The notes under the pieces: generated by a model
The model's database searches: none
What the model was told of the DNA's origin: nothing
The model's input: the letters and a program-made list of their open reading frames with translations, nothing else
Assembly: GCA_949317995.1 (NCBI GenBank)
Contig: OX439040.1
Coordinates: forward strand, 59,492,089-59,556,088
DNA from: Acholoe squamosa
Taxonomy: Eukaryota > Annelida > Polychaeta > Phyllodocida > Polynoidae
Direction of reading: 5' to 3'
DNA: 64,000 nt
Part shown: positions 473-26,611 of the stretch, piece after piece
How the letters are laid out: each line of letters opens with the position of its first letter
Position numbering within the stretch: the first letter of the stretch is position 1
Program-made: the position numbers and the translations under genes

Positions 473-919
473 ATGAAAACAAACTGAATTTAGTTGTCTT
501 GTTTTGAAAAGATAACATAGAACAATATTTTTGATTCATAAACAGTTATACATGTTCATCTTTAATTATGAGAGAGGGTAAATTGATTAGCAGCTGGTTT
601 ATTAGAAATCATAGTGAACATGCCATAATGGTTTAATCAATGGGTGCCATGAAAATTTGAATAAATCAATATTTCATTTACATTATATGAAGAATATTTT
701 GTCTCCTCATGATAATATCTGCTATTCCTAGATGAATAACTAAATCACTGATTACTTAGATGTCAAAGGTAGAAGAATTCAAGATATCTTTTAATGGTTT
801 ATTTCAATAAAACATGAAGCAATCCCATTACACTAATCTGTCTTCAGTCATGATCATATCAATAACATAAAATGAGACTTTGATTATCTTGACATGGGTC
901 TTTATCATAGCATTACATA
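473..919. other. AT-rich intergenic space between convergent genes
   Basis: No open frame of note. It separates the 3' ends of the zinc-binding gene (+) and the Bcl-2-like gene (-). It contains AATAAA-type signals on both strands and is mirrored at 26,612-27,058. Confidence 0.6.
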
Positions 920-1399
920 TTAGAATATTGAAACAATGGCTATACAAGTCAATCCAACAGCAGCTATTGTCAAAAGTCCTCTGAAAATGGTGTCTTCAAT
1001 GGGTTCTGGAAAGTGTGATTCCATGCTTTTGAAAGAACCATTTTCCTCAATCCACTTGCCCCATTTTATCATGATGCAAAGATCCATTACCTCTGAAAGC
1101 CAAATAAGGTTGACTTGTACACCCTCTTTTCTGTATGTCTTAGTCAAACAGGCTCCAAATATGTAGACAGTGAGTATTCTACCCCAGCTACACATATTGT
1201 CCTTGAACATTTCTCTGGCAGAAGAAACAAAAGCAGCCTCCAGAGACTTTCCTGTGTTAAACAGTTTTCTTGTATTGTTATTGAATGTTATGGTATGCTT
1301 TTGCATTACATAGTCCACAGCTTTTCTCAAACCCTTCTTCAATTTGTGTTGTTCCTCCATGATGTATAGTAGTATATCTTTTGCTGGAGATGCTGTCAT
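920..1399 (-). CDS. Viral Bcl-2 homologue, left copy
   Basis: 159 residues with the hallmarks of the Bcl-2 family. The BH1 motif (residues ~63-82) contains the diagnostic SWGRI core. The BH2 motif (~112-124) contains KWIEENGSF. A hydrophobic tail anchor (~139-158) would place it on mitochondrial or ER membranes. The length matches compact viral Bcl-2 proteins. By family knowledge it would bind BH3 peptides and block apoptosis. There are no introns, unlike animal BCL2 genes. A TATATAA on the minus strand (1465-1471) lies 66 bp upstream of the ATG, in a promoter region shared divergently with the 887-residue gene. The two arm copies differ by two synonymous changes that I could see, which suggests coding constraint. 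Confidence 0.88.
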   Translation of the reverse strand: MTASPAKDILLYIMEEQHKLKKGLRKAVDYVMQKHTITFNNNTRKLFNTGKSLEAAFVSSAREMFKDNMCSWGRILTVYIFGACLTKTYRKEGVQVNLIWLSEVMDLCIMIKWGKWIEENGSFKSMESHFPEPIEDTIFRGLLTIAAVGLTCIAIVSIF

Positions 1400-1677
1400 G
1401 ATGAACCCTTGGCATTAGGGAAAAGCCCATTCCTTTGTTTTTAACCAGTTCAAACCTTCTGTGCTTATATAGTTTTATCTCAATATGCAAATTAGAGCTT
1501 TATCACATGACAACACTTTTGCATATTAGTCCTTGAATTTCAGTGATTGGACAATTTAAAGACACATGACACCTTGCTGAAAGTCAATATGCAAATCAGT
1601 CATGTGACCAAAATTTGCATTTAAGAACAGAGTATATATAAAGAGCTCTGCATCAGTTGAAGTTCCACATATGAATC
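1400..1677. promoter_or_regulatory. Divergent promoter with octamer, CATGTGAC and CCAAT boxes
   Basis: Serves the Bcl-2-like gene (-) and the 887-residue gene (+). On the plus strand there are octamers at 1485-1492, 1589-1596 and 1613-1620. CACATGAC/CATGTGAC E-boxes lie at ~1504, ~1563 and 1601-1608, with an ATTGG box near 1547. TATATATAAAG is at ~1633-1643, only ~35 bp before the ATG at 1678, so the leader must be very short. The minus-strand TATATAA is at 1465-1471. Confidence 0.75.
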
Positions 1678-4341: not shown

Positions 4342-4396
4342 TCATTTTATGCCAATGTTGTATTATTAAAGTTGTGAAATCAAAAACAAAAGTATC

Positions 4397-5272
4397 ATGT
4401 TTGTAGTTCCTGATAGTTATTGCTTATATTCAAAGTGTCATGACAAATGGGTCAGTGCTAAGATTTTGGCAAACAGCACAAGAAGCTGCTTTGACTGTTG
4501 GGATGGCACAACCTTTGTTCCAATAGTCATTAGTCCTTGCAATGTCATTCCAACTAAAGTATACAAAGCTGATGCTGTCACCTTTGTAGGAAGTAATCTC
4601 AATATGTCCATTGATTTCCAATGGAATGCTATCAGTAACAAACCACTTGAACATACAGTGAGTACATGTGCTAGAGCCAAACATGTTTTGCTAGCACTGT
4701 ATGACTTTTGCATTTCCACCCATGTCAAGAATGATCACACCTATTGCAAAATTCCTAGCAGTAGACTGAAAGCTCTGGAACCCTGGCTGCCAATAGAAGT
4801 GTCCATTGTTCCATTAAAAAAGAGATACTGCATGATCAGGATTCCCACATGTGCCCTGGAAGGTTTCACTTGTGATACAACAAACAACAAAGATCATGCC
4901 AAAGCATACATTCAAACAGTTCTCAACATCAGTGGGGACATTGTTCCAAGATCTGCCCATGGGCCTCCACATATAAGAGTATCAGACTGCGGAATGAAAA
5001 GGAGACCTCAAGCATTTCAGAAATTAAGGAGAACACTCTTTATGTGTGGTATAATGAACCAATATGCATGCAGAGTGTTTGTTTCTAAGAATGGTAAGAA
5101 CAAACCCAAGAGACAAGCCAGGATATCATTGCATGATTCTCGCCCTTCTGCAAAAGTGAAGTATTTTCCACTGCAGAAAACCGAGGTAGTAGAACAGCTG
5201 AATTGGGTTAACATTGATGTCTTGGGCCAGAATAGAATTGTGGTTGAAGGCATCCGCTTCTCTGTTTCCTGA
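4397..5272 (+). CDS. Unknown 291-residue protein, left copy
   Basis: Starts 56 bp after the stop of the 887-residue gene on the same strand; no separate TATA box is obvious, so it may come from a shared or read-through transcript. It has no signal peptide or clear membrane segment and many cysteines spread over the first ~225 residues. A basic stretch lies near residues 210-245. I do not recognise the family. Conservation of the full frame in both arms supports it as a real protein gene. Confidence 0.7.
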   Translation: MFVVPDSYCLYSKCHDKWVSAKILANSTRSCFDCWDGTTFVPIVISPCNVIPTKVYKADAVTFVGSNLNMSIDFQWNAISNKPLEHTVSTCARAKHVLLALYDFCISTHVKNDHTYCKIPSSRLKALEPWLPIEVSIVPLKKRYCMIRIPTCALEGFTCDTTNNKDHAKAYIQTVLNISGDIVPRSAHGPPHIRVSDCGMKRRPQAFQKLRRTLFMCGIMNQYACRVFVSKNGKNKPKRQARISLHDSRPSAKVKYFPLQKTEVVEQLNWVNIDVLGQNRIVVEGIRFSVS

Positions 5273-5935
5273 TTCTGGATTTCAAGGGAAAATCAAATAT
5301 GTTCTTGGTAGATTCTGCAATTGCTGCAAAAGAACAATGATCTACATCTCTTTTTGAAGCCTATTTGACTTCATGTTCCTCCCTTGAAATAAGGCACCAT
5401 AAAAAGACCCTCAGAGATCCCATGTTTGAGGAGAAAAAAAAACAGAGCATTGGTTCTTACTGATCAAAGGAAGACCCAGTGACGAGGAAAGCAGTCAGAT
5501 GAATCATCAGAATTATCATGGAGAAAGCAGGAAGATTTGTCACACTAAAAGAGTTTTTCCTATAGTCTCAGAAGAATCATCAAAGCAACACTGAAATTGT
5601 TGTTAACAGTAAAGTAAACTGAGCTTTTCTTCTGTATTTGGGAAATAAAAAGGGCATTTAAAGATAATTGTCTCCTCACTGTTTCATTACATGAATTAGG
5701 CATGGCACCTTCAAGGATATAAGACAGGTATGGTACCTTCAGAAAAAAGAAGAAAGAATTGTAACATTCAATAATCTAAATGTGGAGCAATTATACAAGC
5801 CAACTCATAAAGTGCAGAACTTTCATTAATTGGGCAAGGAACTGTTAGAGTGAATTCTGTAATCTTCAATTAATTTCCATGTGGGGGTACTAATATGGAT
5901 GAATCTATTTATTCCAAAATATTTTTCATGTGGAG
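5273..5935 (+). other. Non-coding stretch downstream of the 291-residue gene
   Basis: AT-rich with no long frame. It leads into the satellite block and is mirrored at 21,611-22,258. The first GGTACCTTCA/GGCACCTTCA-like units near 5705-5740 look like degenerate forerunners of the adjacent satellite. Confidence 0.5.
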
Positions 5936-7260
5936 CAATTATGGGTGATGACTCTTAATGAAAAAGGGATTACCTTCAGAGAAAAAGGGATTACCTTCAA
6001 TGTAAAAGATGGATTACCTTCAAGGTAAAGGATGGATTACCTTCAGAGAAAAAGTGAGAGGCATGCACGGTCACTTTCAATAATTTCTGTCCGAAAAAAG
6101 AAAATCTATTTATTCCAAAATATTTTTCATGTGGAGCAATTATGGGTGATGACTCTTAATGAAAAAGGGATTACCTTCAGAGAAAAAGGGATTACCTTCA
6201 ATGTAAAAGATGGATTACCTTCAAGGTAAAGGATGGATTACCTTAAGAGAAAAAGTGAGAGGCATGCACGGTCACTTTCAATAATTTCTGTCCAAAAAAT
6301 AAAATCTATTTATTCCAAAATATTTTTCATGTGGAGCAATTATGGGTGATGACTCTTAATAAAAAAGGGATTACCTTCAGAGAAAAAGGGATTACCTTCA
6401 ATACAAAATATGGATTACCTTCAAGGTAAAGGAGGGATTACCTTCAGAGAAAAAGGGATTACCTTCAAGGTAAAAGATGGATTACCTTCAGAGAAAAAGT
6501 GAGAGGCATGCACGGTCACTTTCAATAATTTCTGTCGGAAAAAAAAAATCTATTTTTTCCAAAATATTTTGCAATTATAGGTGATGACTCTTAACCCATT
6601 GAGGGCTAGCATCGACTATAGTCGACACCATGATAGGCCTAGCGTCGACTATAGTCAACACCATGGCAGGCCTAGCGTCGACCATAGTCGATGCCCATTA
6701 TATAGGATTAGTATAGGAATTGAAAATAGGCTCGTCCTCTAGGAACTATACTTTTTTCAGAGGCTGTCCCCATGGCCGGGGCAACAATTTTTGTTCTGCC
6801 CTAAAAGGGTTAATAAAAAAGGGATTACCTTCAGAGAAAAAGGGATTACCTTCAATGCAAAATATGGATTACCTTCAAGGTAAAGGAGGGATTACCTTCT
6901 GAGAAAAAGGGATTACCTTCAAGGTAAAAGATGGATTACCTTCAAGGTAAAGGAGGGATTACCTTCAGAGAAAAAGTGAGAGGCATGCACGGTCACTTTC
7001 AATAATTTCTGTCGGAAAAAAAAAATCTATTTCTTCCAAAATATTTTGCAATTATAGGTGATGACTCTTAATAAAAAAGGGATTACCTTCAGAGAAAAAG
7101 GGATTACCTTCAATGCAAAATATGGATTACCTTCAAGGTAAAGGAGGGATTACCTTCAGAGAAAAAGGGATTACCTTCAAGGTAAAAGATGGATTACCTT
7201 CAAGGTAAAGGAGGGATTACCTTCAGAGAAAAAGTGAGAGGCATGCAAGGTCACTTTCTT
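5936..7260 (+). repeat. GGATTACCTTCA satellite, left arm
   Basis: Short units of ~20-24 bp around GGATTACCTTCA, alternating AGAGAAAAAG, ATGTAAAAGAT and AGGTAAAGGA spacers. They are grouped into higher-order repeats that end in a conserved tail (GTGAGAGGCATGCACGGTCA, then TTTCAATAATTTCTGTC and TCTTAATAAAAAAGGG). The block is interrupted by a transposon at 6595-6809. Open frames inside are by-products of the repeat. Confidence 0.9.
6595..6809. mobile_element. piggyBac-type MITE, left arm only
   Basis: 215 bp flanked by TTAA on both sides (6591-6594 and 6810-6813). The termini are CCCATTGAGGGC and GCCCTAAAAGGG, inverted repeats matching at 10 of 12 positions, with the CCC/GGG ends and TTAA target typical of piggyBac. 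Inside are three ~34-bp units each holding a CGACTATAGTCG-like palindrome. The uninterrupted site TCTTAATAAAAAAGGG exists at 7066-7081 and in the right arm, so this is a true insertion after the satellite formed. It has no coding capacity. Confidence 0.85.
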
Positions 7261-7364
7261 TTATTTCTTTGTAAAAAAAAAAGCTTTTATCTTTAAATAG
7301 TTTTCACTATTGTACCTTTTCATTATTCATATGTGATGACATAGTGTTTTAATATTGACAGCCC

Positions 7365-8215
7365 CATCCTCGCTGTCAACAGTGGTGACCATCCTTTTGT
7401 CTTGCCACCTCCTTTACCCCTGCCTACTCTAAGAAACTAAGTGTGTTATATGTCTGCCTACTCTAAGAAGCTAAGTGTTTTTGTATGCCTGCCTACTCTA
7501 AGAAGCTAAGTGTTTGAATGCCTGCCTACTCCAAGAAGCTAAGTGTTTGTATGTCTATACCTTTTGACCTCTTTTTGTGTGGACATTTTGTATGAGTTTA
7601 CCTTTTGACCTGTTTTTATGTGTGTACCTTTTTATAATGCCTTTCATATCTGTTTTTGTATTTTTTTATGGTGTCAACAGCCCCATCCTCGCTGTTAACA
7701 GTGGTGACCATCCTTTTGGTTTGCCACCTCCTTTACCCCTGCCTACTCTAAGAAGCTAAGTGTGTTTGTATGCCTGCCTACTCTAAGAAGCTAAGTGTGT
7801 TTGTATGCCTGCCTTCTCTAAGAAGCTAAGTGTTTGAATGCCTGCCTACTCCAAGAAGCTAAGTGTTTGTATGTCTATACCTTTTGACCTCTTTTTGTGT
7901 GGACATTTTGTATGAGTTTACCTTTTGACCTGTTTTTATGTGTGTACCTTTTTATGATGCCTTTCAAATCTGTTTTTGTATATTTTATGGTGTCAACAGC
8001 CCCATCCTCGCTGTTAACAGTGGTGACCATCCGTTTGGTTTGCCACCTCCTTTACCCCTGCCTACTCTAAGAAGCTAAGTGTGTTATATGCCTGCCTACT
8101 CTAAGAAGCTAAGTCTATCATATGCCTGCCTACTCTAAGAAGCTAAGTGTATCATATGCCTGCCTACTCTAAGAAGTTAAGTTGTATGTCTACCTATTCT
8201 AAGAAGCTAAGTATC
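7365..8215 (+). repeat. CCTGCCTACTCTAAGAAGCTAAG satellite, left arm
   Basis: Tandem ~30-34 bp units (core CTACTCTAAGAAGCTAAGTG). They lie inside a ~318-bp higher-order repeat that also contains a CCCATCCTC-loop hairpin at 7355, 7672 and 7991. Mirrored at 18,740-19,590. Confidence 0.85.
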
Positions 8216-10208
8216 CATGTAGTATGTGTGTAGTCCTTGCAATGATGATGAAGCTAGGTATCCATGTAGTGTGTGTGTGTAGTCCTTCCAGTGATGATGA
8301 CAATGATGATTCCTTTCAATATCCTTTTTTCTCTTTGCATGCGATTCTACACGAGCTAGCTATGGTACAACACAGGACATCACAACATTTAAACACATAA
8401 GAGTGGATAGAAATTTGTAGGAAACAGATTGCCAGTGGCCCCACCCTCGCCACTGGCTGTCGCAACCAACCAAGCGCATAGGCCTGTTATGTTGCGTCCT
8501 GCGTACATACCGGACAGCTGAAAAGGAAGGTTGTGCATTAGACATGTCATATCACAATGTGAATGCATCCTGTACTGGACACATGGTTAAGAAAATCCCC
8601 AATGCAATGATGATGTATGAAGTGATGAAGTGATGGTGATGAAAATGGTTACTTGCATCTGCCAGCAGGATGCCTTTGGATGTTTCACCGCTTTTGAGCT
8701 TTAGAAAAAAATGGCCGAAAGTGATCTTTATCTCAAAAAAAAAATTCCAGTGGCCCCACCCTCGCCACTGGCTGTCGCAACCAACCAAGCGCAGAAGCCT
8801 GCTATGTTGCGCCCACTGGACATACCGGACAGCTGAAAAGGAAGGTTGTGCATTAGACATGTCATATCACAATCAGAAGGCATCCTGTACTGGACACACT
8901 AAGTTATTATATGCTTTCTTACAAAGAAGCATCCTGTACTGGATGCACTATGTTATTATATTCTATCCTTTTTTCTACTGGCAATTTTGAGAGAAGAAAA
9001 TGGCCAAAAGTGATTTTATCTGAATTTAGAGAAAATGTCCGAAAGTGATCTTTGTCTCAAAAAAAAATTCCAGTGGCCCCACCCTCGCCACTGGCTGTCG
9101 CAACCAACCAAGCGCAGAGGCCTGCTATGTTGCGCCCACCGTACCGGGCCGACCAGTGCATTTCTACCCCTTGAGAAAGCTACAAGAGCCGCCAATGGAT
9201 CCATGCCTGGTATCTTGATAGCAACATCAGATACATCGAGGTACTGGGAGAGGGGATCAGCTTCGTGTCAAAGTCCCAGTCTTCGCCAACATGCTCGGCC
9301 ATGCATCACATCCTCGGCTCCACACCCCCCAAGTTTCAGTACACTGGCCAATGGAATTTGGATGAACATAAAGTAGCCAAAGCATATAAGAGTCGATCCT
9401 TCTACATATGAGCGACAGAGAGAGGGGATCAGCTTCGTGTCAAAGTCCCAGTCTTCCGCCTATCTCCATAGCGCATCGACTACCCTGGCTCTCCCGAGGC
9501 ACCAGATATACAAAAAAATAAAAAGAGCGCATAAGCACACACTGTTGTTGCTGAACAGTAAGAGTGTATATCCTTTATGGTGCTACATTGTGTACAGACA
9601 TGTACAAACATGCACATACACTGCAGGCCTGATCATTAAAGAGTGCTTGAATCACTCAAGACCCACGGGTGCTCAAGAAATAAAGAGAGACAAAAGGCAA
9701 ACCCTCCTCAAGAGGTGTTCAAACAAAGCGGTGAAAAGGCAAAATCATAAACGAGATGTCAGTGGCCCCACCCTCGCCACTGACTGTCGCAACCAACCAA
9801 GCGCAGAGGCCTGCTATGTTGCGCCCACCGTACCGGGCCGAGGTTACTTGCATCTGCCAGCAAAACGCCTTTGGATGTTTCACCCCACTAGAAATTTAGA
9901 CGAAAATGGCCGAAAGTGATTTCATCCAAAAAAAAAATTCCAGTGGCCCCACCCTCGCCACTGGCTGTCACAACCAACCAAGCGCAGAGGCCTGCTATGT
10001 TGTGTCCACCGTACATACCGGACAGCTGAAAAAGAAGGTTGTGGATTAGACATACATCAACAATCACAGTGTATACAGTAGCTGAAAGAGAAAGTAGTGA
10101 TTAGACATGCATCATCAATGGCAGTGGGACAATGGGTTAGGAGCACACACACATTCACAATGGACAATGGGTTAGTAGCACACACACATTCACACATACA
10201 TTCACACA

Positions 10209-10249
10209 ATGGTTCTGACATAAGAAGGCCAATCGAATGTCAGAACCAT
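10209..10249. other. 13-bp perfect hairpin, left arm
   Basis: ATGGTTCTGACAT at 10209-10221 pairs with its exact complement at 10237-10249 across a 15-nt loop. It sits just outside the multi-branched dyad and recurs at 16,016-16,056 in the right arm. Confidence 0.7.
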
Positions 10250-10256
10250 AATAAAT

Positions 10257-10429
10257 CTCGAATGTTCAACTTCGGTCAGTGTGACAAACCCAAAACACGA
10301 AGCTCTGGGCCCCGGGAAAACACAGAGCTACTTCGACTGTCAACCAAGTCCTGCCCCGGGAAAACAGGACCGAGTCTAAGTCGATTAAGTTTCAAGCTTG
10401 TCACAACTGTCCGAAGTCGAACATTCGAG
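10257..10429. other. Multi-branched (cloverleaf-like) dyad, left arm
   Basis: The outer arms 10257-10287 and 10398-10429 pair over 29 base pairs with two mismatches and one bulge. Inside are hairpin A (AGCTCTG at 10301 with CAGAGCT to 10329) and arm B (TCGACT at 10333 with AGTCGA at 10379). Arm B encloses GTCCTG...CAGGAC (10348-10370). Both inner hairpins have nearly the same loop, CCCCGGGAAAA. Such a structure could extrude as a cruciform. A replication origin or packaging role is inference only. Mirrored at 15,836-16,008. Confidence 0.7.
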
Positions 10430-10469
10430 TGTGAATGGCCCCTGCCTCGCCATTCACCGTGGTGACCTA

Positions 10470-10930
10470 CCAATGTATGCATGATACATTTCCCCTCTAG
10501 AAAGGGATGTCACCTCCGAAGGGATAAGTCCCTCTGCTCTCATGAGGTAAACTCAGGAGAGAGCTGCAAAATTCAAATCCATTCTGGATGTAATGACAAG
10601 ACGGAACACACAAGTTTGGTTTTTGTGTTTTTATGTGTTCCTTTGTCAGTGTAAGAAAAATTGTGGCTCACCTATCCGGCAGGATCGAAAGGATGTGTGA
10701 AACCCCAAAGCGGCTTGGATGTGATATAGTGCATCGGTCTCTGAAGTACCCTTGCATGCAAGGGGTAAAATTCAATTCTGATTTGAGGGTTTCTCCTGTA
10801 AAATTCAATTTCAGCTTGCATCTCTTCCACTTGAATTCTAATTTCTTTATTTGAGTGATTAGAAAACCAAATCCTACTGGCCTCAATTCAATTCTTCATT
10901 TACAGCCCATGTACTCCCAAATGTTAGGTG
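10470..10930. other. Unique non-coding segment, left arm
   Basis: No convincing gene. It contains TTGCATGCAA (10751-10760) and repeats of AAATTCAATT near 10770 and 10800. On the minus strand, mirrored at 15,585-15,596, GATAGGTGAGCC is a good 5' splice-site match. Confidence 0.4.
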
Positions 10931-12265
10931 TGTCATCCGAAATGGGGAACATCTCAACTTGCCATTTTGGGCTTTGGTGGATTTCAGCTCTCAGTGTTGA
11001 CTTGGTCAGTGGGGCTAGCAGTAGAGTTCAGCTGAAATCCACCAAAAGCCAAAATGGCAAGTTGATGAAGTCAGCCAAAACCCTGATTTGGAAAGTTGAT
11101 GGAAGAGGGCAGAACATAGCATTTCTACTGCTAGTACCATTGACCAAGTCGACAGTGAGATCTTAAATCCAGCAAAGCCCAGAATGGCAAGTTGATGAAG
11201 TCAGCCAAAACCCTGATTTGGGAAGTTGATGGAGATGGCAGAACAGAGGAACTATACTGCTAGTTCCACTGACCATGTCCACAGTGAGAGCTTAAATCCA
11301 CCAAAAGCCAAAATGGCAAGTTGATGAAGTCAGCCAAAACCCTGATTTGGGAAGTTGATGGAGATGGCAGAACAGATATCAACTTCCCAAATCGGGGTTT
11401 TGGCTCAGTTCATCAACTTGCCAGTTTGGCTTTCGGTGGATTTCAGCTGTTATTGTTGATTTGGTCAATGGTACTAGCAGTAGAAATGCTATGTTCTGCC
11501 CTCTTCCATCAACTTTCCAAATCAGGGTTTTGGCTGACTTCATCAACTTGCCATTTTGGCTTTTGGTGGATTTCAGCTCCTACTGGTGACTTGATCAGTG
11601 GGGCTAGCAGTAGAGATCCTCTGTTCTGCCATCTCCATCAACTTCCCAAATCAGGGTTTTGGCTGAGTTCACCAACTTGACATATTGGACTTTGGTGGAT
11701 TTCAGCTCTCACTGTGGACTTGGTCAGTGGAACTAGCAGTACAGATCCTCTGTTCTGCCATCTCCATCAACTTCCCAAATCAGGGTTTAGCATCTCTACT
11801 GCTACTTTGACTGACCAAGTTGAAAGTGAGAGCTGAAATCCACCAAAGTCCAATATGGCAAGTTGGTGAACTGAGCCAAAACCCTGATTTGGCAATTTGA
11901 TGGAAGAGGGCAGAACAGAGCATTTCTACTGCTAGTACCATTGACCAAATCAACAGTGAGAGCTGAAATCGACCAAAGTCCAATATGACAAGTTGATGAA
12001 CTCAGCCAAAACCCTGATTTGGGAAGTTGATATCTGTTCTGCCATCTCCACTTGGTCAGTGGAACTAGCAGTACAGACCAAGTCCACAGTGAGAGCTGTA
12101 ATCCACCAAAGGCCAAAATGGCAAGTTGATGAACGGAGCCAAATCCCTGATTTCGGAAGTTGATGGAGATGGCAGAACAGAGAATCTGTACTGCTAGTTT
12201 AACTGACCATGTCCACAGTGGGAGCTGAAATCCACCAAAGCCCAAAATGGCAAGTTGAGATGTCC
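10930..12265. repeat. ~128-bp CCCTGATTTGGGAAGTTGATGG satellite, left arm
   Basis: Many diverged units built from AACCCTGATTTGGGAAGTTG, GATGGCAGAACAGAGG, CTACTGCTAGT, GACCAAGTCCACAGTGAGAG and CTGAAATCCACCAAAGCC. They occur in both orientations, so the block itself is full of inverted repeats. Open frames of 60-160 residues in it are artefacts of the unit length. Confidence 0.85.
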
Positions 12266-12269
12266 CCCA

Positions 12270-12438
12270 TGGAATTTGCATATTATTCCTTTAAGCTCAG
12301 TCATTGGACAACTCCAAGTCACATGGCTGCTTTAGATGTTTCTGTTAGTCAATATGCAAAATCAGTCATGTGACCCAAATTTGCACTTAATACATGAGTA
12401 TATAAGATGAGAGTTAGTCAAAGTTGCACATATGAACC
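12270..12438 (+). promoter_or_regulatory. Promoter of the spacer gene
   Basis: Same order of elements as the 887-residue gene promoter: ATTTGCATATTATTCCTTTA, an ATTGGAC box, TCACATGGC, ATATGCAAAATCAGTCATGT (then GAC), ATTTGCA and TATATAA at ~12,401. The leader ends CACATATGAACCATGG, nearly the leader of the 887-residue gene (CACATATGAATCATGG). The two promoters are therefore paralogous. Confidence 0.7.
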
Positions 12439-12966
12439 ATGGAGTATATACCAAACAGTTCTGTTCTAACAAAGCACCAACAAAGGAAGCTCAGAGATCC
12501 AAACTTCCAGGATAAAGATAACATAAGGAGAAGGAAAAAATACAGAAGGCTGATAGCAGACCCAGTGACAAGAGAAAGATTGAGAGCCCAGCACAACCAT
12601 TATCAAAGGGAATATAGGGCTAGGAAGTTGAAGGAAAAAAACGATATGAAAGATATGGCAAACCATGTATCTGAAGGGACGGGTCAGGACACCAAAGACA
12701 TATTGGAATGTCCGTCTAGGTCAACAATGAATGGCAAACAGTCAGAAATATCTATTGATAATTCTGCTGCAGAAGAAAAAGCAATTGCTTCAACAGATCT
12801 GATAAAGCAATCATTTTCCCATTGTTCTTATGCTCATGATGATGCAAGCTCTGCAGTTGATCTTCTTATGGCAACACATATGTTGCTTTCTGCAGTTGTT
12901 ACAGCAATGACAAACCGAATTGAGAAATGTGTGGCACATCAGAAGGAAAGTCAACTGAATCCATAG
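12439..12966 (+). CDS. Basic protein of the unique spacer (US-like)
   Basis: 175 residues, the only gene in the single-copy spacer between the arms. Residues ~28-68 are very rich in Arg/Lys in a helical pattern, resembling the basic part of bZIP or other DNA-binding proteins. The remainder is Ser/Asp rich with a hydrophobic helix near 138-158. I see no leucine zipper with regular heptads, so bZIP is not claimed. A strong promoter with a TATA box 38 bp upstream supports expression. The function is unknown; nuclear DNA or RNA binding is inferred from composition only. Confidence 0.65.
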   Translation: MEYIPNSSVLTKHQQRKLRDPNFQDKDNIRRRKKYRRLIADPVTRERLRAQHNHYQREYRARKLKEKNDMKDMANHVSEGTGQDTKDILECPSRSTMNGKQSEISIDNSAAEEKAIASTDLIKQSFSHCSYAHDDASSAVDLLMATHMLLSAVVTAMTNRIEKCVAHQKESQLNP

Positions 12967-13505
12967 GATGAGTTTTTTTTTTAATTTTTATTTTTTATTC
13001 ATGAAATTCATCCTGATAAAGATTCATCAAATGTATTGAAATGCTGATTAAATAATAAGCGCATTTATAAATCTATAATAATCAACTTATACATTGTATT
13101 GAATGTAACTTTGTTATTTGTTGAAACAAAAGTTTGAATTGTATTTGAAATTGTGACCATTCAACTCTAAGTATTTATGAAATAACGAGAACTTCAAAAG
13201 AATATTGTTTTTCTCACTTATTCCTAAATGGAAGGAGGAGACTCAGGCATTACACTAAAAAAAAGCAGTATACTCATGAAGGACACTCAAGGAGAAATGA
13301 ATGATTGATGAAGAGTTGACCCATGATGAGAATTTAAGACTAGTTGAAAAAAAATATTGAATTGTTCAGAAATCTAAACAGATTCTTGCCCAGGACATTA
13401 AAGGAAAAAATCCTGAATGGAAGGAGGACACTCAGGCAGTACACTCAAGAGAAATGAATGATTGATGAAGAGTTGACCCCTGATGAGAATTTTAATCTAG
13501 TTGAC
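12967..13505. other. AT-rich non-coding rest of the spacer with a direct duplication
   Basis: Holds two diverged direct copies, about 13,225-13,345 and 13,411-13,503. Both contain AATGGAAGGAGGA, CACTCAGGCA, GAAATGAATGATTGATGAAG and AGTTGACCC. No gene seen. Confidence 0.6.
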
Positions 13506-15320
13506 TGTTGAATTGGTCAGTTAAACTAGCAGTACAGATTCTCTGTTCTGCCATCTCCATCAACTTCCCAAATCAAGGTTTTGGCTCCGTTCATCGACTT
13601 GCCATTTTGGCCTTTGGTGGATTACAGCTCTCACTGTGGACTTGGTCAGTTAAACTAGCAGTACAGATTCTCTGTTCTGCCATCTCCATCAAGTTCCGAA
13701 ATCAGGGATTTGGCTCCGTTCATCAACTTGCCATTTTGGCCTTTGGTGGATTACAGCTCTCACTGTGGACTTTGTCAGTCAAAGCAGCAGTAGAGATGCT
13801 AAACCCTGATTTGGGAAGTTGATGGGAGAGGTCAGAACAGATGATCTGTACTGCTAGTTCCACTGACCAAGTCTACAGTGAGAGCTGAAATCCAGCAAAG
13901 TCCAATATGACAAGTTGGTGAACTGAGCCAAAACCCTGATTTGGCAAGTTGATATGGAGATGGCAGAACAGAGGATCTCTACTGCTAGCCCAACTGACCA
14001 AGTCAACAGTGGGAGCTGAAATCAACCAAAGGCCAAAATGGCAAGGTGATGAAAGGAGCCAAAACCCTGATTTGGGAAGTTAATGTGAGAGGGCAGAACA
14101 GAGGATCTCTACTGCTAGCCCAACTGACCAAGTCCACAGTGAGAGCTGAAATCCACCAAAGCCCAGAATGGCAAGTTGATGAAGTCGGCCAAAACCCTGA
14201 TTTGGGAAGTTGATGGGAGAAGGCAGAACAGAGCATTTCTACTGCTAGTGCCATTAACCAAATCAACAGTGAGAGCTGAAATCCACCAAAAGCCAAAATG
14301 GCAAGTTTGTGAACTGAGCCAAAACCCTGATTTGGTAAGTTGATGGAGATGGCAGAACAGATATCAACTTCCCAAATCAGGGTTTTGGCTCAGTTCATCA
14401 ACTTGTCATATTGGACTTTGGTCGATTTCAGCTCTCACTGTTGATTTGGTCAATGGTACTAGCAGTAGAAATGCTCTGTTCTGCCCTCTTCCATCAAATT
14501 GCCAAATCAGGGTTTTGGCTCAGTTCACCAACTTGCCATATTGGACTTTGGTGGATTTCAGCTCTCACTTTCAACTTGGTCAGTCAAAGTAGCAGTAGAG
14601 ATGCTAAACCCTGATTTGGCAAGTTGATGGAGATGGCAGAACAGAGGATCTGTACTGCTAGTTCCACTGACTAAGTCCACAGTGAGAGCTGAAATCCACC
14701 AAAAGCCAAAATGGCAAATTGATGAAGTCAGCCAAAACCCTGATTTGGAAAGTTGATGGAAGAGGGCAGAACAGAGCATTTCTACTGCTAGTACCATTGA
14801 CCAAATCAACAATAGCAGCTGAAATCCACCGAAAGCCAAACTGGCAAGTTGATGAACTGAGCCAAAACCCCGATTTGGGAAGTTGATATCTGTTCTGCCA
14901 TCTCCATCAACTTCCCAAATCAGGGTTTTGGCTGACTTCATCAACTTGCCATTTTGGCTTTTGGTGGATTTAAGCTCTCACTGTGGACATGGTCAGTGGA
15001 ACTAGCAGTATAGTTCCTCTGTTCTGCCATCTCCATCAACTTCCCAAATCAGGGTTTTGGCTGACTTCATCAACTTGCCATTCTGGGCTTTGCTGGATTT
15101 CAGCTGTTATTGTCGACTTGGTCAATGGTACTAGCAGTAGAAATGCTATGTTCTGCCCTCTTCCATCAACTTTCCAAATCAGGGTTTTGGCTGACTTCAT
15201 CAACTTGCCATTTTGGCTTTTGGTGGATTTCAGCTGAACTCTACTGCTAGCCCCACTGACCAAGTCAACACTGAGAGCTGAAATCCACCAAAGCCCAAAA
15301 TGGCAAGTTGAGATGTTCCC
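13505..15320. repeat. ~128-bp satellite, right arm
   Basis: Same family as 10,930-12,265, with at least one extra or missing unit: the mirror offset changes by 129 bp inside the block. Confidence 0.85.
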
Positions 15321-15783
15321 CATTTCGCATGACACACCTAACATTTGGAAGTACATGGGCTGTAAATGAAGAATTGAATTGAGGCCAGTAGGATTTGGTT
15401 TTCTAATCACTCAAATAAAGAAATTAGAATTCAAGTGGAAGAGATGCAAGCTGAAATTGAATTTTACAGGAGAAACCCTCAAATCAGAATTGAATTTTAC
15501 CCCTTGCATGCAAGGGTACTTCAGAGACCGATGCACTATATCACATCCAAGCCGCTTTGGGGTTTCACACATCCTTTCGATCCTGCCGGATAGGTGAGCC
15601 ACAATTTTTCTTACACTGACAAAGGAACACATAAAAACACAAAAACCAAACTTGTGTGTTCCGTCTTGTCATTACATCCAGAATGGATTTGAATTTTGCA
15701 GCTCTCTCCTGAGTTTACCTCATGAGAGCAGAGGGACTTATCCCTTCGGAGGTGACATCCCTTTCTAGAGGGGAAATGTATCA
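15321..15783. other. Unique non-coding segment, right arm
   Basis: Mirror of 10,470-10,930. It carries GATAGGTGAGCC (15,585-15,596), a splice-donor match on the plus strand. No coding frame supported. Confidence 0.4.
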
Positions 15784-15835
15784 TGCATACATTGGTAGGT
15801 CACCACGGTGAATGGCGAGGCAGGGGCCATTCACA

Positions 15836-16008
15836 CTCGAATGTTCGACTTCGGACAGTTGTGACAAGCTTGAAACTTAATCGACTTAGACTCGGTCCTG
15901 TTTTCCCGGGGCAGGACTTGGTTGACAGTCGAAGTAGCTCTGTGTTTTCCCGGGGCCCAGAGCTTCGTGTTTTGGGTTTGTCACACTGACCGAAGTTGAA
16001 CATTCGAG
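15836..16008. other. Multi-branched dyad, right arm
   Basis: Mirror copy of 10,257-10,429; the same outer helix and two CCCCGGGAAAA-loop hairpins are present on the opposite strand. Confidence 0.7.
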
Positions 16009-16015
16009 ATTTATT

Positions 16016-16056
16016 ATGGTTCTGACATTCGATTGGCCTTCTTATGTCAGAACCAT
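16016..16056. other. 13-bp perfect hairpin, right arm
   Basis: Mirror of the hairpin at 10,209-10,249, with stem ATGGTTCTGACAT. Confidence 0.65.
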
Positions 16057-16426
16057 TGTGTGAATGTGTGTGTGAATGTGTGTGTGCTACTAACCCATTG
16101 TCCATTGTGAATGTGTGTGTGCTCCTAACCCATTGTCCCACTGCCATTGATGATGCATGTCTAATCACTACTTTCTCTTTCAGCTACTGTATACACTGTG
16201 ATTGTTGATGTATGTCTAATCCACAACCTTCTTTTTCAGCTGTCCGGTATGTACGGTGGACACAACATAGCAGGCCTCTGCGCTTGGTTGGTTGTGACAG
16301 CCAGTGGCGAGGGTGGGGCCACTGGAATTTTTTTTTTGGATGAAATCACTTTCGGCCATTTTCGTCTAAATTTCTAGTGGGGTGAAACATCCAAAGGCGT
16401 TTTGCTGGCAGATGCAAGTAACCTCG

Positions 16427-17804
16427 GCCCGGTACGGTGGGTGCAACATAGCAGGCCTCTGCGCTTGGTTGGTTGCGACAGTCAGTGGCGAGGGTGGGGC
16501 CACTGACATCTCGTTTATGATTTTGCCTTTTCACCGCTTTGTTTGAACACCTCTTGAGGAGGGGTTGCCTTATGTCTCTCTTTATTTCTTGAGCACCCGT
16601 GGGTCTTGAGTGATTCAAGCACTCTTTAATGATCAGGCCTGCAGTGTATGTGCATGTTTGTACATGTCTGTACACAATGTAGCACCATAAAGGATATACA
16701 CTCTTACTGTTCAGCAACAACAGTGTGTGCTTATGCGCTCTTTTTATTTTTTTGTATATCTGGTGCCTCGGGAGAGCCAGGGTAGTCGATGCGCTATGGA
16801 GATAGGCGGAAGACTGGGACTTTGACACGAAGCTGATCCCCTCTCTCTGTCGCTCATATGTAGAAGGATCGACTCTTATATGCTTTGGCTACTTTATGTT
16901 CATCCAAATTCCATTGGCCAGTGTACGGAAACTTGGGGGGTGTGGAGCCGAGGATGTGATGCATGGCCGAGCATGTTGGCGAAGACTGGGACTTTGACAC
17001 GAAGCTGATCCCCTCTCCCAGTACCTCGATGTATCTGATGTTGCTATCAAGATACCAGGCATGGATCCATTGGCGGCTCTTGTAGCTTTCTCAAGGGGTA
17101 GAAATGCACTGGTCGGCCCGGTACGGTGGGCGCAACATAGCAGGCCTCTGAGCTTGGTTGGTTGCGACAGTCAGTGGCGAGGGTGGGGCCACTGACATCT
17201 CGTTTATGATTTTGCCTTTTCACCGCTTTGTTTGAACACCTCTTGAGGAGGGGTTGCCTTTTGTCTCTCTTTATTTCTTGAGCACCCGTGGGTCTTGAGT
17301 GATTCAAGCACTCTTTAATGATCAGGCCTGCAGTGTATGTGCATGTTTGTACATGTCTGTACACAATGTAGCACCATAAAGGATATACACTCTTACTGTT
17401 CAGCAACAACAGTGTGTGCTTATGCGCTCTTTTTATTTTTTTGTATATCTGGTGCCTCGGGAGAGCCAGGGTAGTCGATGCGCTATGGAGATAGGCGGAA
17501 GACTGGGACTTTGACACGAAGCTGATCCCCTCTCTCTGTCGCTCATATGTAGAAGGATCGACTCTTATATGCTTTGGCTACTTTATGTTCATCCAAATTC
17601 CATTGGCCAGTGTATGGAAACTTGGGGGGTGTGGAGCCGAGGATGTGATGCATGGCCGAGCATGTTGGCGAAGACTGGGACTTTGACACGAAGCTGATCC
17701 CCTCTCCCAGTACCTCGATGTATCTGATGTTGCTATCAAGATACCAGGCATGGATCCATTGGCGGCTCTTGTAGCTTTCTCAAGGGGTAGAAATGCACTG
17801 GTCG
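16427..17804. repeat. 689-bp tandem duplication, right arm only
   Basis: Two copies, 16,427-17,115 and 17,116-17,804, each beginning GGCCCGGTACGGTGGG and containing the 160-codon repeat frame and a hairpin. They differ by few bases (for example TTATGTCTC versus TTTTGTCTC). The left arm has one copy (~9,145-9,835), so the arms are not fully homogenised. Confidence 0.9.
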
Positions 17805-18739
17805 GCCCGGTACGGTGGGCGCAACATAGCAGGCCTCTGAGCTTGGTTGGTTGCGACAGCCAGTGGCGAGGGTGGGGCCACTGGAATTTTTTTTTGAGAC
17901 AAAGATCACTTTCGGACATTTTCTCTAAATTCAGATAAAATCACTTTTGGCCATTTTCTTCTCTCAAAATTGCCAGTAGAAAAAAGGATAGAATATAATA
18001 ACATAGTGCATCCAGTACAGGATGCTTCTTTGTAAGAAAGCATATAATAACTTAGTGTGTCCAGTACAGGATGCCTTCTGATTGTGATATGACATGTCTA
18101 ATGCACAACCTTCCTTTTCAGCTGTCCGGTATGTCCAGTGGGCGCAACATAGCAGGCTTCTGCGCTTGGTTGGTTGCGACAGCCAGTGGCGAGGGTGGGG
18201 CCACTGGAATTTTTTTTTTGAGATAAAGATCACTTTCGGCCATTTTTTTCTAAAGCTCAAAAGCGGTGAAACATCCAAAGGCATCCTGCTGGCAGATGCA
18301 AGTAACCATTTTCATCACCATCACTTCATCACTTCATACATCATCATTGCATTGGGGATTTTCTTAACCATGTGTCCAGTACAGGATGCATTCACATTGT
18401 GATATGACATGTCTAATGCACAACCTTCCTTTTCAGCTGTCCGGTATGTACGCAGGACGCAACATAACAGGCCTATGCGCTTGGTTGGTTGCGACAGCCA
18501 GTGGCGAGGGTGGGGCCACTGGCAATCTGTTTCCTACAAATTTCTATCCACTCTTATGTGTTTAAATGTTGTGATGTCCTGTGTTGTACCATAGCTATCT
18601 CGTGTAGAATCGCATGCAAAGAGAAAAAAAGGATATTGAAAGGAATCATCACTGGAAGGACTACACACACACACTACATGGATACCTAGCTTCATCATCA
18701 TTGCAAGGACTACACACATACTACATGGATACTTAGCTT

Positions 18740-19590
18740 CTTAGAATAGGTAGACATACAACTTAACTTCTTAGAGTAGGCAGGCATATGATACACTTAG
18801 CTTCTTAGAGTAGGCAGGCATATGATACACTTAGCTTCTCAGAGTAGGCAGGCATATAACACACTTAGCTTCTTAGAGTAGGCAGGGGTAAAGGAGGTGG
18901 CAAACCAAAAGGATGGTCACCACTGTTAACAGCGAGGATGGGGCTGTTGACACCATAAAAAATAGAAAAACAGATATGAAAGACATTATAAAAAGGTACA
19001 CACATAAAAACAGGTCAAAAGGTAAACTCATACAAAAATGTCCACACAAAAAGAGGTCAAAAGGTATAGACATACAAACACTTAGCTTCTTGGAGTAGGC
19101 AGGCATATGATACACTTAGCTTCTTAGAGAAGGCAGGCATATGATACACTTAGCTTCTTAGAGTAGGCAGGCATATAACACACTTAGCTTCTTAGAGTAG
19201 GCAGGGGTAAAGGAGGTGGCAAACCAAAAGGATGGTCACCACTGTTAACAGCGAGGATGGGGCTGTTGACACCATAAAAAATACAAAAACAGATATGAAA
19301 GGCATTATAAAAAGGTACACACATAAAAACAGGTCAAAAGGTAAACTCATACAAAATGTCCACACAAAAAGAGGTCAAAAGGTATAGACATACAAACACT
19401 TAGCTTCTTGGAGTAGGCAGGCATTCAAACACTTAGCTTCTCAGAGTAGGCAGGCATACAAACACACTTAGCTTCTTAGAGTAGGCAGACATATAACACA
19501 CTTAGTTTCTTAGAGTAGGCAGGGGTAAAGGAGGTGGCAAGACAAAAGGATGGTCACCACTGTTGACAGCGAGGATGGGGCTGTCAATAT
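18740..19590 (-). repeat. CTTAGCTTCTTAGAGTAGGCAGG satellite, right arm
   Basis: Mirror of 7,365-8,215, with the ~318-bp higher-order period and hairpins at 18,924, 19,243 and 19,563. Confidence 0.85.
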
Positions 19591-19689
19591 TAAAACACTA
19601 TGTCATCACATATGAATAATGAAAAGGTACAATAGTGAAAAGTATTTAAAGATAAAAGCTTTTTTTTTACAAAGAAATAAAAGAAAGTG

Positions 19690-21610
19690 ACCTTGCATGC
19701 CTCTCACTTTTTCTCTGAAGGTAATCCCTCCTTTACCTTGAAGGTAATCCATATTTTGCATTGAAGGTAATCCCTTTTTCTCTGAAGGTAATCCCTTTTT
19801 TATTAAGAGTCATCACCTATAATTGCAAAATATTTTGGAAAAAATAGATTTTTTTTTCCGACAGAAATTATTGAAAGTGACCGTGCATGCCTCTCACTTT
19901 TTCTCTGAAGGTAATCCATCTTTTACCTTGAAGGTAATCCCTTTTTCTCTGAAGGTAATCCCTCCTTTACCTTGAAGGTAATCCATCCTTTACCTTGAAG
20001 GTAATCCATCTTTTACATTGAAGGTAATCCCTTTTTCTCTGAAGGTAATCCCTCCTTTACCTTGAAGGTAATCCATCTTTTACCTTGAAGGTAATCCCTT
20101 TTTCTCTGAAGGTAATCCATCCTTTACCTTGAAGGTAATCCATCTTTTACATTGAAGGTAATCCCTTTTTCTCTGAAGGTAATCCCTTTTTCATTAAGAG
20201 TCATCACCCATAATTGCTCCACATGAAAAATATTTTGGAATAAATAGATTTTATTTTTTTGGACAGAAATTATTGAAAGTGACCGTGCATGCCTCTCACT
20301 TTTTCTCTGAAGGTAATCCATCCTTTACCTTGAAGGTAATCCATCTTTTACATTGAAGGTAATCCCTTTTTCTCTGAAGGTAATCCCTTTTTCATTAAGA
20401 GTCATCACCCATAATTGCTCCACATGAAAAATATTTTGGAATAAATAGATTTTATTTTTTGGACAGAAATTATTGAAAGTGACCGTGCATGCCTCTCACT
20501 TTTTCTCTGAAGGTAATCCATCCTTTACCTTGAAGGTAATCCATCTTTTACATTGAAGGTAATCCCTTTTTCTCTGAAGGTAATCCCTTTTTTATTAAGA
20601 GTCATCACCCATAATTGCTCCACATGAAAAATATTTTGGAATAAATAGATTTTATTTTTTGGACAGAAATTATTGAAAGTGACCGTGCATGCCTCTCACT
20701 TTTTCTCTGAAGGTAATCCATCCTTTACCTTGAAGGTAATCCATCTTTTACATTAAAGGTAATCCCTTTTTCTCTGAGGGTAATCCCTTTTTCTCTGAAG
20801 TTAATCCCTCCTTTACCTTGAAGGTAATCCATATTTTGCATTGAAGGTAATCCCTTTTTCTCTGAAGGTAATCCCTTTTTTATTAAGAGTCATCACCTAT
20901 AATTGCAAAATATTTTGGAAGAAATAGATTTTTTTTTTCCGACAGAAATTATTGAAAGTGACCGTGCATGCCTCTCACTTTTTCTCTGAAGGTAATCCCT
21001 CCTTTACCTTGAAGGTAATCCATCTTTTACCTTGAAGGTAATCCCTTTTTCTCTGAAGGTAATCCCTCCTTTACCTTGAAGGTAATCCATATTTTGCATT
21101 GAAGGTAATCCCTTTTTCTCTGAAGGTAATCCCTTTTTTATTAAGAGTCATCACCTATAATTGCAAAATATTTTGGAAAAAAATAGATTTTTTTTTCAGA
21201 CAGAAATTATTGAAAGTGACCGTGCATGCCTCTCACTTTTTCTCTGAAGGTAATCCATCTTTTACCTTGAAGGTAATCCCTTTTTCTCTGAAGGTAATCC
21301 CTCCTTTACCTTGAAGGTAATCCATATTTTGTATTGAAGGTAATCCCTTTTTCTCTGAAGGTAATCCCTTTTTTATTAAGAGTCATCACCCATAATTGCT
21401 CCACATGAAAAATATTTTGGAATAAATAGATTTTATTTTTTGGACAGAAATTATTGAAAGTGACCGTGCATGCCTCTCACTTTTTCTCTTAAGGTAATCC
21501 ATCCTTTACCTTGAAGGTAATCCATCTTTTACATTGAAGGTAATCCCTTTTTCTCTGAAGGTAATCCCTTTTTCATTCTCTGAAGGTAATCCCTTTTTCA
21601 CATGAAAAAT
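19690..21610 (-). repeat. TGAAGGTAATCC satellite, right arm
   Basis: Mirror of 5,936-7,260 but roughly 0.8 kb longer when the left-arm MITE is excluded, with more higher-order units. It lacks the piggyBac-type insertion. Confidence 0.9.
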
Positions 21611-22258
21611 ATTTTGGAATAAATAGATTCATCCATATTAGTACCCCCACATGGAAATTAATTGAAGATTACAGAATTCACTCTAACAGTTCCTTGCCCA
21701 ATTAATGAAAGTTCTGCACTTTATGAGTTGGCTTGTATAATTGCTCCACATTTAGATTATTGAATGTTACAATTCTTTCTTCTTTTTTCTGAAGGTACCA
21801 TACCTGTCTTATATCCTTGAAGGTGCCATGCCTAATTCATGTAATGAAACAGTGAGGAGACAATTATCTTTAAATGCCCTTTTTATTTCCCAAATACAGA
21901 AGAAAAGCTCAGTTTACTTTACTGTTAACAACAATTTCAGTGTTGCTTTGATGATTCTTCTGAGACTATAGGAAAAACTCTTTTAGTGTGACAAATCTTC
22001 CTGCTTTCTCCATGATAATTCTGATGATTCATCTGACTGCTTTCCTCGTCACTGGGTCTTCCTTTGATCAGTAAGAACCAATGCTCTGTTTTTTTTTCTC
22101 CTCAAACATGGGATCTCTGAGGGTCTTTTTATGGTGCCTTATTTCAAGGGAGGAACATGAAGTCAAATAGGCTTCAAAAAGAGATGTAGATCATTGTTCT
22201 TTTGCAGCAATTGCAGAATCTACCAAGAACATATTTGATTTTCCCTTGAAATCCAGAA
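21611..22258. other. Non-coding stretch, right arm
   Basis: Mirror of 5,273-5,935. No gene seen. Confidence 0.5.
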
Positions 22259-23134
22259 TCAGGAAACAGAGAAGCGGATGCCTTCAACCACAATTCTATT
22301 CTGGCCCAAGACATCAATGTTAACCCAATTCAGCTGTTCCACTACCTCGGTTTTCTGCAGTGGAAAATACTTCACTTTTGCAGAAGGGCGAGAATCATGC
22401 AATGATATCCTGGCTTGTCTCTTGGGTTTGTTCTTACCATTCTTAGAAACAAACACTCTGCATGCATATTGGTTCATTATACCACACATAAAGAGTGTTC
22501 TCCTTAATTTCTGAAATGCTTGAGGTCTCCTTTTCATTCCGCAGTCTGATACTCTTATATGTGGAGGCCCATGGGCAGATCTTGGAACAATGTCCCCACT
22601 GATGTTGAGAACTGTTTGAATGTATGCTTTGGCATGATCTTTGTTGTTTGTTGTATCACAAGTGAAACCTTCCAGGGCACATGTGGGAATCCTGATCATG
22701 CAGTATCTCTTTTTTAATGGAACAATGGACACTTCTATTGGCAGCCAGGGTTCCAGAGCTTTCAGTCTACTGCTAGGAATTTTGCAATAGGTGTGATCAT
22801 TCTTGACATGGGTGGAAATGCAAAAGTCATACAGTGCTAGCAAAACATGTTTGGCTCTAGCACATGTACTCACTGTATGTTCAAGTGGTTTGTTACTGAT
22901 AGCATTCCATTGGAAATCAATGGACATATTGAGATTACTTCCTACAAAGGTGACAGCATCAGCTTTGTATACTTTAGTTGGAATGACATTGCAAGGACTA
23001 ATGACTATTGGAACAAAGGTTGTGCCATCCCAACAGTCAAAGCAGCTTCTTGTGCTGTTTGCCAAAATCTTAGCACTGACCCATTTGTCATGACACTTTG
23101 AATATAAGCAATAACTATCAGGAACTACAAACAT
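22259..23134 (-). CDS. Unknown 291-residue protein, right copy
   Basis: The predicted protein is identical to the left copy at 4397-5272. It lies 55 bp downstream of the stop of the 887-residue gene on the same strand. No recognised domain. Exact protein conservation between arms reflects recent common origin or ongoing gene conversion. Confidence 0.7.
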   Translation of the reverse strand: MFVVPDSYCLYSKCHDKWVSAKILANSTRSCFDCWDGTTFVPIVISPCNVIPTKVYKADAVTFVGSNLNMSIDFQWNAISNKPLEHTVSTCARAKHVLLALYDFCISTHVKNDHTYCKIPSSRLKALEPWLPIEVSIVPLKKRYCMIRIPTCALEGFTCDTTNNKDHAKAYIQTVLNISGDIVPRSAHGPPHIRVSDCGMKRRPQAFQKLRRTLFMCGIMNQYACRVFVSKNGKNKPKRQARISLHDSRPSAKVKYFPLQKTEVVEQLNWVNIDVLGQNRIVVEGIRFSVS

Positions 23135-23189
23135 GATACTTTTGTTTTTGATTTCACAACTTTAATAATACAACATTGGCATAAAATGA

Positions 23190-25853: not shown

Positions 25854-26131
25854 GATTCATATGTGGAACTTCAACTGATGCAGAGCTCTTTATATATACT
25901 CTGTTCTTAAATGCAAATTTTGGTCACATGACTGATTTGCATATTGACTTTCAGCAAGGTGTCATGTGTCTTTAAATGGTCCAATCACTGAAATTCAAGG
26001 ACTAATATGCAAAAGTGTTGTCATGTGATAAAGCTCTAATTTGCATATTGAGATAAAACTATATAAGCACAGAAGGTTTGAACTGGTTAAAAACAAAGGA
26101 ATGGGCTTTTCCCTAATGCCAAGGGTTCATC
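25854..26131. promoter_or_regulatory. Divergent promoter, right copy
   Basis: Mirror of 1,400-1,677, with TATATAA boxes facing both ways (~25,890-25,900 on minus, ~26,062 on plus), three octamers and CATGTGAC boxes. Confidence 0.7.
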
Positions 26132-26611
26132 ATGACAGCGTCTCCAGCAAAAGATATACTACTATACATCATGGAGGAACAACACAAATTGAAGAAGGGT
26201 TTAAGAAAAGCTGTGGACTATGTAATGCAAAAGCATACCATAACATTCAATAACAATACAAGAAAACTGTTTAACACAGGAAAGTCTCTGGAGGCTGCTT
26301 TTGTTTCTTCTGCCAGAGAAATGTTCAAGGACAATATGTGTAGCTGGGGTAGAATACTCACTGTCTACATATTTGGAGCCTGTTTGACTAAGACATACAG
26401 AAAAGAGGGTGTACAAGTCAACCTTATTTGGCTTTCAGAGGTAATGGATCTTTGCATCATGATAAAATGGGGCAAGTGGATTGAGGAAAATGGTTCTTTC
26501 AAAAGCATGGAATCACACTTTCCAGAACCCATTGAAGACACCATTTTCAGAGGACTTTTGACAATAGCTGCTGTTGGATTGACTTGTATAGCCATTGTTT
26601 CAATATTCTAA
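26132..26611 (+). CDS. Viral Bcl-2 homologue, right copy
   Basis: 159 residues, protein identical to the left copy. BH1 core SWGRI near residues 71-75, BH2 near 112-124, C-terminal tail anchor near 139-158. The start is the ATG after a TATATAA box ~65 bp upstream. The two nucleotide differences from the left copy that I found (GCA/GCG near the start, TTG/TTA in codon 24) are silent. As a Bcl-2 protein it would act at mitochondrial membranes against Bak/Bax-type killers. Confidence 0.88.
   Translation: MTASPAKDILLYIMEEQHKLKKGLRKAVDYVMQKHTITFNNNTRKLFNTGKSLEAAFVSSAREMFKDNMCSWGRILTVYIFGACLTKTYRKEGVQVNLIWLSEVMDLCIMIKWGKWIEENGSFKSMESHFPEPIEDTIFRGLLTIAAVGLTCIAIVSIF

Follow-up and report, generated by a model that had tools for sequence, protein, structure and literature searches.

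We analysed a 64,000-nucleotide stretch of the genome of the polynoid annelid Acholoe squamosa (GenBank assembly GCA_949317995.1, contig OX439040.1, positions 59,492,089 to 59,556,088; hereafter the window), in which hairpins with a constant loop and changing stems recur within a giant inverted repeat. The best explanation, in which we place about even confidence, is that these hairpins are parts of a structured noncoding RNA containing two-hairpin modules of 59-87 nt, which an endogenous herpesvirus-like element carries in its inverted repeats and which are likely to serve multivalent docking. An earlier sequence-only reading had reported nine left-arm and ten right-arm hairpins, and all were found in their places, with stems and second helices as it had described them.

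Form and number of the modules

The pattern CCCWNCCTC-N17-CCWWCC had 19 exact matches in the window, and no further ones were added at one mismatch. The mean in 100 dinucleotide-preserving shuffles was 0.13, which rules out a chance origin. As CCWWCC always follows 17 nt downstream and GT closes the linker, the repeat unit is a first hairpin (H1) together with a second (H2) in fixed register. On the strand first read, H1 comes first, with 8-9 bp and a constant 9-nt loop; a linker with GT at its end then leads to the 5' half of H2, which CWWCC follows. H2 has 6 bp and closes 9, 19 or 37 nt further on in classes A, B and C, respectively. On the opposite strand the module reads 5'-GGR, H2 (6 bp) enclosing N9, N19 or N37 and GGWWG, then ACN, and H1 (9 bp) with GAGGNWGGG as its loop. 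The alignment of the three classes is gap-free over 42 nt. In the left arm, class A is positioned at 7363, 7682 and 8001, class B at 8440, 8755, 9078, 9767 and 9948, and class C at 10440. The two arms of the giant inverted repeat are a single inverted duplication, so that about ten positions, which fall into three classes, are represented in duplicate. Nineteen independent copies are thereby ruled out. The pairing of GTGG with CCAC first suggested for class A is possible; H2 of this class may also be read as GGTGAC/GCCACC, which would be homologous to GGTGAC/GTCACC of class C.

When the genome (1.48 Gb in 63 contigs) was searched with a wide form of the module pattern at up to one mismatch, at least 722 places were found, compared with 12 for a reversed control. 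Among the matches listed, these places cluster on four contigs (C1-C4). Genome searches with other loop-closing pairs gave 7 matches against 3 in the control for the exact pattern, with stems of 0-4 bp, and no match against 1 in the control for a second form. So many natural copies in one genome provide a rich covariation record for a structure that is absent from Rfam. Rfam 15 gave no match across the whole window at the gathering cut-off, and at E values up to 10 there were five weak matches in 7300-10650, none of which overlapped a module. With no Rfam match, self-cleaving ribozymes and other Rfam families were rejected, in line with the earlier remark that no named RNA family of this form was known. 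A Pol III gene was rejected as well: there was no strict A-box match, six B-box-like sequences were present between 5 and 13.2 kb when up to two mismatches were allowed, and a T-run is not general.

Covariation and conservation between lineages

The covariation set combined the window with 11 fetched stretches. From 194 raw matches 129 were kept and 2 then dropped, yielding 37 distinct 50-nt cores, and these 37 module rows with 15 pairs each gave 555 cells. Paired cells made up 87.7% of the total, compared with 74.3% when the 3' letters were shuffled (0 of 500 shuffles as high) and 26-49% when the sides were slid. Two-sided changes were observed at 11 of the 15 pairs (8.1 in shuffles, with 11 of 500 reaching this number). 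The covariation score was 0.478 against 0.230 shuffled (0 of 500 as high); these counts are inflated by kinship among the copies, and the H1 filter favours pairing. When class representatives were compared, with class A represented by the best-paired of its three forms, there were 6, 4 and 3 two-sided changes and no one-sided change. Selection on structure, as first proposed, is supported by the two-sided stem changes beside fixed loops; the unit size and the favoured RNA strand differ from those of the proposal.

The fetched stretches represent two lineages, approximately 88% identical across the class C region. Between lineages, class B bins from -10 to +69 were 0.74-0.98 identical, compared with 0.27-0.65 for the flanks, in agreement with the earlier description of elements embedded in unrelated satellites. 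The description fails for the class A repeats, in which bins from -10 to +49 were 0.87-0.99 identical and 17 of the 22 other bins were at 0.59-0.85 (16 of 21 without the +50 bin). The change of the second helix from CGCAAC/GTTGCG to CACAAC/GTTGTG at 9,940, to which the sequence-only reading had drawn attention, is present. It was downgraded as key evidence because it consists of two transitions at CpG sites, and is weak evidence alone. In lineage 2, CACAAC stands with GTTGCG in seven copies and with GTTGCA in one.

Helix-2 changes on CpG sites also suit a reading without any function, in which satellite palindromes spread by unequal exchange, become symmetric through template switching, and are copied between repeats as whole modules. 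The repeats are crowded with inverted repeats, and arms and copies are homogenised, to 98-99% in the main blocks. Against this, the loops, the linker GT and the 17-nt spacing are fixed while both stems vary, class B modules are conserved amid unrelated flanks, and the strand-biased wobble described below is left unexplained. We consider the absence of function rather improbable.

Strand of the predicted RNA and its possible role

Non-Watson-Crick cells on the first-read strand comprised 45 A.C, 4 G.U and 23 others (of 555); as separate states, the bias is 6 to 0 for recurrent states (at least two distinct rows) plus 2 to 4 for single-row states, not 45 to 4. As A.C on one strand is G.U on the other, the RNA most likely lies opposite to the C-rich reading. 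It would run on the - strand of the left arm and the + strand of the right arm, and present the loops GAGGNWGGG and GGWWG. Retention of G.U wobble on one strand, as seen in these counts, is expected of an RNA rather than a DNA hairpin module. On the - strand 17 of the 37 modules were fully paired, compared with 5 on the + strand; without the outermost H1 pair the numbers were 25 and 13. A strand assigned from wobble in this way is a sharp and cheap prediction.

The module could alternatively act as DNA, its hairpins being extruded from single-stranded or supercoiled DNA for the start of replication, for packaging or for inversion of the short segment. DNA hairpins too require paired stem changes, and the modules lie in repeats beside a short central segment, like the S segment of ostreid herpesvirus 1 (OsHV-1), a virus whose suspected origin is a stem-loop according to the available text of PMC9836095. 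There is no reason, however, for a DNA hairpin to hold A.C on one strand in 45 cells against 4, and nineteen copies in one inverted repeat would be many for an origin. We regard a role as DNA as unlikely. A tyrosine-recombinase or dimer DNA site was rejected by reasoning, because the 'spacer' stays constant whereas changes in the arms are compensated.

The class C module lies in a strongly folded domain of 376 nt. The - strand of this domain folds with -174.4 kcal/mol (z -10.8) and the + strand with -141.8 (z -8.5), and the consensus of four sequences gave -154.5 and 137 pairs on the - strand versus -108.8 and 118 pairs on the + strand. Outside the module, wobble pair states showed the same bias (19 vs 7, and 4 vs 1 for pairs common to both folds); the pair sets come from the folds of each strand, of which the - fold has more pairs, and the count excludes 14 pairs outside and 2 inside the module in which no row was Watson-Crick. 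Two further hairpins in the domain, at 10301-10329 and 10348-10371, have a common loop region and differing stems, and on the - strand each terminates in a wobble run, UUUU/GGGG, around CCC.

These measurements bear also on an RNA of the C-rich strand, whose CCCWNCCTC and CWWCC loops would dock poly(C)-binding KH proteins. Such proteins target C-rich loops. The + strand is the strand of the left-arm 887-aa and 291-aa open reading frames (ORFs), so that read-through could produce C-rich RNA, and in the 376-nt domain two-sided changes were found in 4 of 118 pairs of the + fold and in 1 of 137 pairs of the - fold. A C-rich RNA would, however, have to carry the 45 A.C cells, would be fully paired in 5 of 37 modules (13 of 37 without the outermost pair), and would fold less well across the 376-nt domain. 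It is the least probable of the readings considered, and we think it very unlikely.

For an RNA of the G-rich strand, read-through from the putative central promoter would yield right-arm RNA with class C first, then class B, then class A. Having nine or ten modules per arm, one transcript would display many copies of the same G-rich loop pair in fixed register. This RNA would most likely serve as a multivalent docking platform for a protein of the virus or the host, since the fixed spacing and the two G-rich loops per module suggest a docking unit repeated for avidity. In a bolder version, which we regard as doubtful, the modules form a new RNA family whose four GG tracts make a two-layer G-quadruplex that joins the hairpins, providing a multivalent viral scaffold on a long noncoding RNA. 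Two of these tracts would come from GGWWG(G), next to H2, and two from GAGGNWGGG, within H1; in both cases two variable bases separate the tracts. A mild argument against a quadruplex is that the final G of the H2 tract is also base-paired in H2.

Several observations weigh against the proposed structured RNA, in addition to the kinship among copies, the H1 filter, the reduction of the strand bias when states are counted and the numbers of two-sided changes in the 376-nt domain. Further pair types were below the shuffles (16 vs 20.8), and H1 alone had 6 two-sided pairs compared with 5.4 shuffled (248 of 500 as high). All copies are from a single genome, in which the element has two lineages, and few independent events underlie the differences between classes. 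Folding of single modules gave z values of -2.1 to -4.4 (10 stretches, strands not separated), and was weak for class B, with z -2.07 in two of three + copies. H2' is missing in two copies, and a T-run follows H1 in only three of the five left-arm class B copies. Between lineages the class C module is no more conserved than its flanks: the 5' flank is partly as conserved as the module, inner H2 falls to 0.62-0.75, and one lineage-2 copy is without H2'. Imperfect inverted repeats abound in the region and could be foldback debris, and transcription, RNA function and docking are themselves inferred.

The carrier element and comparison with known systems

Positions 1-27530 of the window are one giant 27.5-kb inverted repeat, with main blocks 98-99% identical. 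Block 1-6258 pairs with 27530-21277 (99.4%), 7139-9841 with 19802-17113 (98.3%), and 9071-11659 with 17194-14606 (99.0%); a satellite stretch at 6.26-7.14 kb in the left arm matches the opposite arm less simply. The right arm has one module more because of a tandem duplication with a 689-bp offset, which contains the module at 17128..17196. Dense nested direct and inverted repeats with a CTGATTTGGGAAGTTGATGG-type unit are present around the centre, at 10940-12260 and 13500-15310. As to the TRL-UL-IRL-(X)-IRS-US-TRS layout of Malacoherpesviridae, the window shows repeats around a short central part; on C4 the palindromes of two pairs are separated by approximately 123 and 125 kb, and those of a third by approximately 37 kb.

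Between two palindromes on C4, in one fetched stretch (L032), two same-strand ORFs 566 bp apart match consecutive parts of PF02499 (herpesvirus terminase). The scores are modest: the match to domain positions 9-168 gave E 2.5e-4 and 20.6 bits, below the 22.8-bit cut-off, and that to positions 191-337 gave E 3.2e-5 and 23.5 bits, above it. A protein-kinase ORF was found with Pfam in another fetched piece. No major capsid protein, capsid protease or family B DNA polymerase turned up among 17 ORFs in Pfam scans of pieces that cover part of one copy. The terminase matches, the kinase ORF and the repeats around a short centre, like those of the OsHV-1 S segment, suggest that the carrier is most likely a multi-copy endogenous herpesvirus-like element, probably an endogenous herpesvirus.

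Two adjacent ORFs without introns, 887 and 291 aa long, occupy 1678-4341 and 4397-5272 (mirrored at 23190-25853 and 22259-23134); for each, a relative lies on a 91,410-base ENA contig. Neither matched Pfam and the 887-aa ORF had no PDB match; its AlphaFold model, with a mean predicted local distance difference test (pLDDT) score of 37, was unusable. Three protein queries to IMG/VR found no relatives. Among the 46 matches listed for the 887-aa ORF, 13 were full-length at 99-100%, others were at 66-79%, and a paralogue was present at 36-37%. This paralogue, with an open frame of approximately 900 aa, occurs at C4:16528709, C6:59365812 and C4:52290056, and at other places. The present copy has the full-length ORF in both arms, and the other 11 full-length matches at 99-100%, among those listed, are each solitary. 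Next to a lineage-2 stretch (L010) the 887-aa gene is in pieces at 72-78%. Similar promoter-like blocks (octamers, a CACATGAC-type box and TATA) precede the 887-aa and 175-aa ORFs at 1485-1640 and 12260-12410, and both proteins start ME-IP. Just outside the inverted repeat is a RING-finger ORF (27825-28652), present too in stretch L020 near the contig 4 repeat. Right of the palindrome are a tyrosine-recombinase ORF (32261-33571; PF00589 just under cut-off, DIRS-like in appearance) and a Ty3-type gag ORF (57490-59511).

Table 1. Features of the window. For modules, the strand is that of the predicted RNA, taken from the wobble bias.
Feature	Position	Strand	Remark
Left arm of giant inverted repeat, putative endogenous herpesvirus-like element	1..11659	+	from block pairing
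Class A copy 1 (H1+H2)	7354..7412	-	
Class A copy 2	7673..7731	-	
Class A copy 3	7992..8050	-	
Class B copy 1	8431..8499	-	
Class B copy 2	8746..8814	-	T-run next on predicted RNA strand
Class B copy 3	9069..9137	-	T-run next
Class B copy 4	9758..9826	-	stem pair C-G to T-A
Class B copy 5	9939..10007	-	H2 CACAAC/GTTGTG; T-run next; one of its mappings 9939-9992
376-nt strongly folded domain holding class C module	10200..10575	-	from folding energy
Class C	10431..10517	-	two small hairpins inside H2
Centre between arms	11660..14605	.	full of shorter inverted repeats; 175-aa ORF at 12439-12966
Putative promoter of central 175-aa ORF	12260..12410	+	octamer, E-box-like, TATA; points to right arm along predicted RNA strand
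Right arm of inverted repeat	14606..27530	-	mirrored modules
Class C, right arm	15748..15834	+	
Class B, right arm	16258..16326	+	one of its mappings 16273-16326
Class B, right arm	16439..16507	+	one of its mappings 16454-16507
Class B, right arm	17128..17196	+	in tandem duplication
Class B, right arm	17817..17885	+	
Class B, right arm	18140..18208	+	
Class B, right arm	18455..18523	+	
Class A, right arm	18893..18951	+	
Class A, right arm	19212..19270	+	
Class A, right arm	19530..19588	+	

The proposed structured RNA module of this endogenous herpesvirus-like carrier appears to be new. As to homologues elsewhere, on which the sequence-only reading had let its case depend, the modules are found again in another lineage of the element within this genome, and IMG/VR gave only chance-like matches: none for the class B core pattern and nine contigs for a wider pattern, all with stems of 2-4 bp. 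A term search of the literature on herpesvirus repeats with covarying hairpins returned, in the records seen, nothing on the subject.

The Xist A-repeat and the Drosophila roX boxes are repeated structured hairpin units in long noncoding RNAs that provide many protein docking sites. The present modules differ in sequence and host, and lie in the inverted repeats of a viral-type element. Baculovirus hr (homologous region) repeats are imperfect palindromes present in many copies in a large DNA virus; their arms are conserved DNA sequence, whereas in the present modules the loops are constant and changes in the arms are compensated.

Teratorn and other endogenous herpesviruses resemble the carrier as herpesvirus-like elements in a host genome, Teratorn as a transposon. 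No modules like the present ones are mentioned for these elements in the available accounts. The invertebrate herpesvirus haliotid herpesvirus 1 (HaHV-1) is reported to have six non-coding RNAs, for which the available text of PMC8537636 describes no repeat modules or structures. If the proposed RNA is real, this endogenous herpesvirus-like lineage would harbour a new RNA family, and invertebrate herpesviruses such as HaHV-1 and OsHV-1 could be searched for a docking unit of the protein or G-quadruplex kind. In architecture the element resembles the OsHV-1 (Malacoherpesviridae) S segment, in which, according to the available text of PMC9836095, inverted repeats of 9.7 kb surround a 3.5-kb unique region. 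The two are alike in having repeats around a short unique region, but OsHV-1 has one stem-loop there, as far as that text describes it, and the present element has nine or ten two-hairpin modules per arm.

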